Source: Ruminococcus sp. (GTDB taxonomy: Bacteria > Bacillota_A > Clostridia > Oscillospirales > Ruminococcaceae). Taken from it: 35,137 nucleotides of DNA. How positions within the stretch are numbered: position 1 is the stretch's first letter; every line of letters starts with the position of its first letter. The stretch covers positions 1 to 35,137 of the forward strand of contig NZ_JAIKXF010000042.1 of NCBI RefSeq assembly GCF_024684275.1. Reading direction: 5' to 3'. Below the pieces are notes generated by a model. It had not been told where the DNA came from. It ran no database searches and saw only the letters and a list, made by a program, of their open reading frames with translations. A program made the position numbers and the translations under genes. This document shows positions 29,877 to 31,301 of this stretch, in pieces.

Positions 29877-31301
29877 ATGGGCGGCTTTTTTGGTGCAGCC
29901 TCTAAAAACGACTGCGTTACCGACGTATTCTTCGGAACAGACTATCATTCACATCTCGGAACAAGAAGAGGCGGTATGACCTCATGGTCTGAGGAGAACG
30001 GCTTTCAGAGAAATATCCACAGTATCGAAAATTCTCCTTTCCGTACCAAGTTCGAGAATGACGTTGTAAATATGAGAGGCAAGCTCTGTATCGGCTGTAT
30101 CAGCGATACAGATCCTCAGCCTATCCTTGTCCGCTCAAAGCTCGGTATATACGCTATATGCTCTGTAGGTATAATCCGCAATGCTGACAAGCTGGTAGAC
30201 GAGCTCCTTGAAAAGGGCTGTGCAAACTTTGAGTCAATGAGCAGCGGAAATATCAACTCAGGTGACCTTATAGGCGCTCTCATCGCACAGAAGGCTTCCT
30301 TCGCTGAGGGTATCCGCTATGCTCAGGAAAAAATAGAGGGCACTATGTCGCTCATTATCCTCACAAAGGACAGCATTATCGCCGCAAGAGACCAGTTCGG
30401 CAGACTTCCTATCATCATAGGCAAGAGAAGCGACGGCTTCTGTCTCTCTACTGAGTCGTTTGCATTCCAGAAGCTGGGCTATACCACCTACAAGGAGCTT
30501 GCAGCAGGCGAGATAGTCGAGCTTACAGCAGATGAGTGCAGAACTATCGCTGAGGGCGATCCCTCAAAGATGAAGATATGCACCTTCCTGTGGACCTACT
30601 ACGGCTATCCTAACGCTGTATATGAGGGTGTTAATGTCGAGGTAATGCGTACACGCAACGGCGAGATAATGGCTGAAAACGACATCAAGAACGGCAGACT
30701 TCCCGACGTTGACTATATCTGCGGAGTCCCCGATTCGGGCACTCCACACGCTATCGGCTATGCTAACAAGAGCGGTATCCCCTTTGCAAGACCGTTCATC
30801 AAGTATACTCCCACATGGCCAAGAAGCTTCATGCCCACAAACCAGAGCATGAGAAATCAGGTGGCTAAAATGAAGCTCATTCCCGTACATGAGCTTATAA
30901 ACGGTAAAAAGCTCCTCTTCGTTGACGACAGTATCGTAAGAGGAACACAGATGAGAGAGACTGTTGAGTTTCTCTACGAGCACGGCGCTAAAGAGGTACA
31001 TATGCGCTCTGCCTGTCCGCCTATAATGTACGGCTGCAAGTACCTCAACTTCTCACGCAGCACTTCCGAAATGGAGCTTATCGCCCGCCAGATAATCGAC
31101 GAATTTGAAGGCCCCGTCGGCGTAAGACACATTGAGGAATACAGCAATTCCTCAACAGACAGAGGACGCAGACTCAGAGATGAGATATGCAAGAGGCTCC
31201 GCCTTACCTCACTGGAATTCCAGACGCTTGAGGGCACAGAAAAGGCTGTAGGTCTTGATGCCTGCAAGCTCTGCACATATTGCTGGAACGGCAAAGAATA
31301 A
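29877..31301 (+). CDS. purF: Amidophosphoribosyltransferase with a degenerate glutaminase site
   Basis: A 474-residue PurF-family protein. The C-terminal phosphoribosyltransferase part is intact, with the PRPP loop LLFVDDSIVRGTQ, and there are cysteines at positions suited to the Fe-S cluster of Bacillus-type PurF (late CKLCTYC). The N-terminal Ntn glutaminase domain is abnormal: the mature start should be CGxxG, but here it is MGGFFG with no Cys. The usual GHxRYxT motif reads GCISDTD, and the NG of the oxyanion region reads VG (V97-G98). An in-frame stop lies six bases upstream of the ATG, so no longer Cys-containing start exists. It may use free ammonia or a partner glutaminase. It sits between purC and purM in the normal order. 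Confidence 0.93.
   Translation: MGGFFGAASKNDCVTDVFFGTDYHSHLGTRRGGMTSWSEENGFQRNIHSIENSPFRTKFENDVVNMRGKLCIGCISDTDPQPILVRSKLGIYAICSVGIIRNADKLVDELLEKGCANFESMSSGNINSGDLIGALIAQKASFAEGIRYAQEKIEGTMSLIILTKDSIIAARDQFGRLPIIIGKRSDGFCLSTESFAFQKLGYTTYKELAAGEIVELTADECRTIAEGDPSKMKICTFLWTYYGYPNAVYEGVNVEVMRTRNGEIMAENDIKNGRLPDVDYICGVPDSGTPHAIGYANKSGIPFARPFIKYTPTWPRSFMPTNQSMRNQVAKMKLIPVHELINGKKLLFVDDSIVRGTQMRETVEFLYEHGAKEVHMRSACPPIMYGCKYLNFSRSTSEMELIARQIIDEFEGPVGVRHIEEYSNSSTDRGRRLRDEICKRLRLTSLEFQTLEGTEKAVGLDACKLCTYCWNGKE

Follow-up and report, generated by a model that had tools for sequence, protein, structure and literature searches.

The gene at positions 29877-31301 of the window (the whole stretch of DNA analysed here, 35,137 nucleotides of Ruminococcus sp. 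contig NZ_JAIKXF010000042.1) encodes a member of a bacterial clade of PurF proteins that lack the catalytic cysteine of the glutaminase site. From sequence comparison we consider it likely that these proteins are PRPP-dependent phosphoribosylamine synthases of PurF descent, with a dead glutaminase site and most likely using ammonia. Textbooks give PurF as the enzyme with which purine synthesis begins, at the expense of glutamine. What is new here is a bacterial clade whose Cys-less form, designated purF' below, is in many genomes the sole PurF that could be found. In the window purF' stands among the following purine genes.

27134-27634, forward strand: purE (TIGR01162, 187.1 bits; cut-off 149.6)
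29154-29873, forward strand: purC (TIGR00081, 255.9 bits; cut-off 189.9)
29871-29873, forward strand: TAA stop codon of purC, in the frame of purF' and two codons ahead of its ATG
29877-31301, forward strand: purF', the Cys-less PurF, 474 aa, with the start MGGFFG
31361-32398, forward strand: purM (TIGR00878, 436.3 bits; cut-off 236.35; the mechanical open reading frame runs from 31280, and the ATG at 31361 was taken as its start)
33438-34061, forward strand: purN (TIGR00639, 203.6 bits; cut-off 150.1)

The in-frame purC stop codon makes a longer, Cys-bearing start of purF' impossible, as the preliminary description of this DNA had argued, and a mis-called start in the window is ruled out on the same evidence. 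The gene order is purE, a DUF4272 gene, a HAD phosphatase gene, purC, purF', purM, an expansin-like gene and purN. The DUF4272 and HAD phosphatase genes (27678-28978, forward strand) look like recent neighbours, because BLAST with the window genes across the best 80 related loci of the genome scan recovered them in just 4 and 9 loci, respectively. The gene between purM and purN (32488-33399, forward strand) belongs to the expansin EXLX1 family (241.9 bits, cut-off 100). Elsewhere in the window, a type IV pilus-like set occupies 3325-6175 and 12939-15764 on the reverse strand, with two T2SSE ATPases (one with MshEN) and PilM-like and T2SSF genes.

Glutamine site and phosphoribosyltransferase half

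We aligned 114 distinct Cys-less sequences (window protein included, four partial or broken rows omitted, identical rows merged) with 33 Cys-type PurFs, including that of E. coli K-12. The relevant features of purF' are as follows.

29880-29882, forward strand: Gly2, at the position of catalytic Cys1 (sequence and structural alignment)
29940-29963, forward strand: D22-Y23-H24-S25-H26-L27-G28-T29 (TVLQHRGQ in E. coli)
30093-30113, forward strand: G73-C-I-S-D-T-D79, the glutamine loop, with Arg73/Tyr74 (E. coli numbering) deleted
30165-30167, forward strand: Val97, at the position of oxyanion Asn101 (alignment)
30579-30581, forward strand: Cys235, an Fe-S ligand position
30801-30830, forward strand: flexible loop K309-F318, rewritten to KYTPTWPRSF (KNRYVGRTF in E. 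coli)
30924-30950, forward strand: PRPP loop DDSIVRGTQ, D350-Q358 (alignment)
31035-31037, forward strand: Cys387, an Fe-S ligand position
31272-31283, forward strand: Cys466 and Cys469, Fe-S ligand positions

The preliminary description had placed Gly at the nucleophile position, Val97 at the oxyanion Asn and the sequence GCISDTD in the GHxRYxT region. Alignment with E. coli PurF and the other Cys-type proteins agrees with the first two assignments and refines the third, in that Arg73 and Tyr74 are deleted rather than substituted (a gap in 114/114 Cys-less rows; R and Y in 33/33 Cys-type rows). The nucleophile position is Gly in 108 of the Cys-less rows, Ser in 5 (L008, L009, L015, L018, L019), Trp in the one from locus L109, whose gene lacks a clear start codon, and Cys in none; in the Cys-type rows it is Cys in 33 of 33. 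Structural alignment likewise puts residue 2 of the purF' model on chain residue 1 of 1ao0, 1ecb and 1ecf. At the Asn101 position the Cys-less rows carry Val (75), Ile (38) or Thr (1), and all 33 Cys-type rows carry Asn; the Asp127 position is Ser128 in the window protein, and that of Arg26 is Leu in 114/114 Cys-less rows. Arg73, Asn101 and Asp127 (E. coli numbering) are glutamine-site residues of PurF. Within D22-T29, H26 and G28 are common to Cys-PurFs, and the other six residues are clade-specific and almost invariant. In principle, Ser could take over as the nucleophile, but the Ser-type rows also lack Arg73 and Asn101.

The phosphoribosyltransferase half had been described as intact, which stands for the PRPP loop and fails for the flexible loop and Thr374. 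Residues D350, D351, S352, V354, R355, G356 and T357 are present in 114/114 Cys-less rows, and I353 in 111. Thr374 of E. coli is replaced by Gln (Q358) in all 114, as uniformly as Y310, T311, P312 and W314 occupy the rewritten flexible loop. Cys235, Cys387, Cys466 and Cys469, which we take to be the positions of the Fe-S ligands of B. subtilis PurF, are each found in 114/114 Cys-less rows, and the Cys-type rows keep them in 33, 32, 32 and 32 of 33, the exception being E. coli. Clade-specific, near-invariant residues number 20 within residues 1-230 (among them D22, Y23, H24, S25, L27, T29, H48, R56 and K58) and 33 in the remainder.

The AlphaFold2 model of purF' (pLDDT 91.4, pTM 0.89) predicts a complete PurF fold, with 1ao0, 6lbp, 1gph and E. 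coli PurF as best fold matches and residues 311-320 as its lowest-confidence ten-residue block. Compared with nine close relatives, dN/dS was 0.04-0.12 over residues 1-230 and 0.01-0.12 over 231-474, rough values given the high dS (0.56-1.58); the former range argues that the dead glutaminase half is not decaying. Purifying selection on both halves, together with the clade-wide state, rules out a sequencing error, a private mutation or a decaying pseudogene in the window. Measured against PurF (EC 2.4.2.14) of the B. subtilis (1gph/1ao0) and E. coli (1ecb/1ecf) types, the window protein thus has the same predicted overall fold and the PRPP loop DDSIVRGT, and its clade has the four cluster cysteine positions of the B. 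subtilis-type Fe-S enzyme, but it is without the nucleophile, Arg73/Tyr74 and Asn101, has Ser at Asp127 and a different flexible loop, and scores 180.7 bits with the purF equivalog model TIGR01134, under the cut-off of 350 (188.6 bits for a Cys-less member from Bacteroides fragilis).

Distribution, descent and neighbouring genes

The Cys-less PurF clade is real and widespread, and probably ancient. The idea of a whole subfamily in gut anaerobes, put forward in the preliminary description, is borne out by the 114 distinct sequences without the Cys and by 171 carriers among 297 genomes of a single order. A quickly built maximum-likelihood tree with 32 representatives places the 18 Cys-less rows on one side of a branch with an SH-aLRT value of 100 (no bootstrap) and a very long stem. 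This topology would suit a single ancient origin, with the proviso that a long stem can conceal a more complex history. The 18 rows include P0131 of B. fragilis, a species whose Cys-less proteins were found with an approximate probe. P0131 is recorded on at least 1000 contigs; by eye, it has Gly2, the shortened Arg loop and the Fe-S cysteines.

The 80 best loci from the genome scan lean toward close relatives. At 78 of them at least one of purE, purC, purM and purN shares the strand of the Cys-less gene within the DNA examined, L091 and L110 having none. By gene, purM occurs at 77 of these 80, purE at 74, purN at 66 and purC at 54, the last a count from which BLAST may have missed divergent copies; the purC genes that it did recover in L139 and L141-L143 are only 32-33% identical. 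Eight of the 20 loci collected following the family survey have none of the four genes adjoining in the DNA examined. For three non-operon copies (L113, L117, L123), a partial scan of ten neighbour proteins suggested no partner gene, and the proteins that could be named (AraC-type regulators, lysyl-tRNA synthetase, RqcH/EfbA-like, galactokinase-like, glycosidases) have no purine relation. At one locus (L121 of genome G318, 8360-9773, reverse strand) the Cys-less gene is broken by an internal stop and matches in two BLAST pieces, and an intact Cys-PurF match adjoins it, which suggests that the Cys-less gene can be lost where the other form is present.

Genomes with and without a second PurF

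A second, Cys-containing purF, raised as a possibility in the preliminary description, is present in the nearest relative genome examined (G001), which carries a 99% copy of purF' and, elsewhere, a Cys-PurF with a short leader before CGVFG. Purine synthesis in that organism need not, therefore, rely on ammonia alone. Across 299 genomes sampled from the phylum, all 18 carriers of the Cys-less form likewise have a second match, and a gap from 542 to 191 bits parts the Cys-less form from other matches among the matches listed. Of 60 genomes sampled from the family, 6 have the Cys-less form alone, and all six have purD and a clostridial PurL.

The order sample comprised 297 genomes from one order of gut Clostridia at a completeness of at least 95% (two of them, G340 and G358, shared with the six just mentioned). 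A genome was called a carrier when its best E-value was below 1e-100, and any other PurF-like match was counted at E<=1e-20. PurF matches occurred in 280 genomes: 171 carry the Cys-less form, and the remaining 109 have matches of other kinds only. The other 17 genomes gave no match. Among the 171 carriers, 108 have a further PurF-like match and 63 do not. Where a second match exists, as in these 108 and the 18/18 phylum carriers, the Cys-less form could be accessory.

We read the Cys-less gene in all 63 sole-PurF genomes. The nucleophile position is Gly in 55, Ser in 8 (L140, L147, L151, L152, L163, L175, L186, L199) and Cys in none; Arg73 and Tyr74 are deleted in 63/63, and Asn101 is replaced by Val (43), Ile (18) or Thr (2). 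All 63 have the four Fe-S cysteine positions and the DD, S, V, R and G of the PRPP loop, and 62 its T. L146 and L191 have an upstream in-frame Cys-Gly, but it is well ahead of GGFFG and out of register, and was rejected as a nucleophile. Re-searching the 63 sole-PurF and the 17 PurF-less genomes gave no PurF over the TIGR01134 cut-off (0/80). Extra matches in G454 and G556 proved to be glmS. One genome (G513) has a 224-residue piece of Cys-PurF type at a contig end and was dropped, leaving 62 genomes from 11 families of the order. As that case shows, an absent Cys-PurF can be an assembly gap; at 95-100% completeness, we estimate that a Cys-PurF would by chance fall into such a gap in a few of the 171 carriers, not in 62.

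Later purine genes accompany the sole Cys-less gene in most of these genomes. Over their cut-offs, purD was found in 61/63 sole-PurF genomes versus 4/17 with neither PurF form (Fisher p about 1e-9, ignoring relatedness), purL in 62/63 versus 3/17 (some in pieces at contig ends) and purM in 61/63 versus 1/17. All three occur together in 60/63, or 59/62 without G513; at the limits used, the exceptions are G371 (without purD, purL and purM), G627 (without purD) and G407 (without purM). Four genomes (G372, G396, G397, G615) have purD and neither PurF form at these limits, which may mean that their assemblies have gaps or that phosphoribosylamine comes from elsewhere. The control genome, Bacteroides ihuae, has purD, whereas searches for purF at 1e-32 and for purM at 1e-60 found nothing in it.

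Source of the ammonia and precedents

The preliminary description had proposed that the enzyme is either ammonia-dependent or fed by another protein. Because 62 genomes yielded no PurF other than the Cys-less form, and 59 of them retain purD, purL and purM, phosphoribosylamine is very probably made by the Cys-less enzyme itself, and ammonia dependence is the best explanation. The second half of the proposal fares worse. It would have the Cys-less PurF make phosphoribosylamine from ammonia supplied by a separate glutaminase or by a Cys-PurF in a mixed oligomer, and the latter arrangement would suit the 16/80 loci at which the Cys-less gene has a Cys-PurF match on its own strand no more than 600 bp away (5-38 bp downstream in 13 of the 16). 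We nevertheless hold it improbable, since no Cys-PurF was found in the 62 genomes and no extra glutaminase among the genes of the window's pur operon.

That the protein is a pseudoenzyme, a purine-pathway regulator or structural partner without synthase activity, seems very unlikely: the glutaminase half is indeed dead and most order carriers have another PurF-like match, yet seven of the eight PRPP-loop residues are unchanged across the alignment and 59 of the 62 sole-PurF genomes retain purD, purL and purM. Least probable of all, to our mind, is that the old glutaminase pocket now receives some other donor of nitrogen, or a ligand that regulates the enzyme, making it neither glutamine- nor simply ammonia-dependent, for which the 20 clade-specific residues in the first 230, the purifying selection on that half and the Ser in 8/63 sole-PurF genes might speak, but the 33 clade-specific residues across the other half make general rebuilding an equally good reading, and the Ser rows have lost Arg73 and Asn101 too.

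In an ammonia-using synthase, PRPP would be held by the PRPP loop and attacked by free cytoplasmic ammonia, not by ammonia channelled from glutamine, and the product phosphoribosylamine would pass to PurD. The old glutaminase half may be retained because it serves as a scaffold and lines one side of a remodelled path for incoming ammonia, and this would explain the new conserved residues in that half and in the flexible loop. Where a species has both forms, as the nearest relative does, its Cys-PurF may work when ammonia is scarce. Adaptation of the clade to high ammonia is plausible. It would not mean that glutamine has been abandoned in general, because the glutaminase motif of PurL, GICNGFQ, is retained in 6/6 genomes read (G001 and five with the Cys-less form only); a general loss of glutamine use is rejected for purines on this ground.

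Carbamoyl phosphate synthetase I, which has lost its glutaminase Cys, differs from PurF in fold and glutaminase class. In animals it is likewise an ammonia-dependent enzyme derived from glutamine-dependent kin, according to PMC6022934. The single-domain NAD synthetase, as described in PMC3376133, also uses free ammonia where its kin use glutamine; its glutaminase domain is absent, whereas in the Cys-less PurF the domain is retained and conserved.

The closest precedent is archaeal. In our search for a Cys-less PurF in the open-access literature, with subscription journals mostly outside its scope, PMC3261824 (2011) alone was recognised as relevant. It describes a Crenarchaeota cluster, PurF', without the Cys and near purF and other purine genes, with one of each form per genome, and proposes an ammonia-dependent aminotransferase as one possibility, still to be tested. 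The same paper relates that replacing Cys1 of E. coli PurF abolished glutamine use and left ammonia use (Mei and Zalkin 1989, via PMC3261824). The ammonia idea of the preliminary description therefore has a precedent in a protein that, by this description, resembles the present clade as a nucleophile-less PurF relative near purine genes. The crenarchaeal nucleophile position is, in that account, often Ala or Val, whereas it is Gly or Ser in the bacterial clade; a Cys-PurF accompanies PurF' in each crenarchaeal genome, whereas none was found in the 62 bacterial ones; and the E. coli mutants, as summarised there, represent a laboratory change, whereas the Cys-less clade is a natural state with rebuilt surroundings. 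The sole-PurF genomes are stronger genetic support for ammonia use than the crenarchaeal precedent, and the 2011 archaeal hypothesis becomes testable in organisms whose sole PurF appears to be Cys-less.

Ammonia-using synthases at this step would have consequences for many bacteria of the gut, where free ammonium is the main nitrogen currency. We put forward, as a tentative and rather doubtful extension, that a single ancient event parted PurF from glutamine in B. fragilis and in the majority of the species sampled from this large order of gut Clostridia, and that the dead half was rebuilt as an ammonium-capturing or ammonium-sensing entry that would tie the first committed purine step to free ammonium. 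Fibre-degrading rumen bacteria need ammonia, according to one sentence in PMC12993626. If the Cys-less PurF is an ammonia-using enzyme, the annotation 'amidophosphoribosyltransferase' and the metabolic models of many gut bacteria would misstate this step. Inhibitors that are glutamine analogues should then leave the enzyme unaffected, and the supply of purines, in gut and rumen alike, would depend directly on ammonium.
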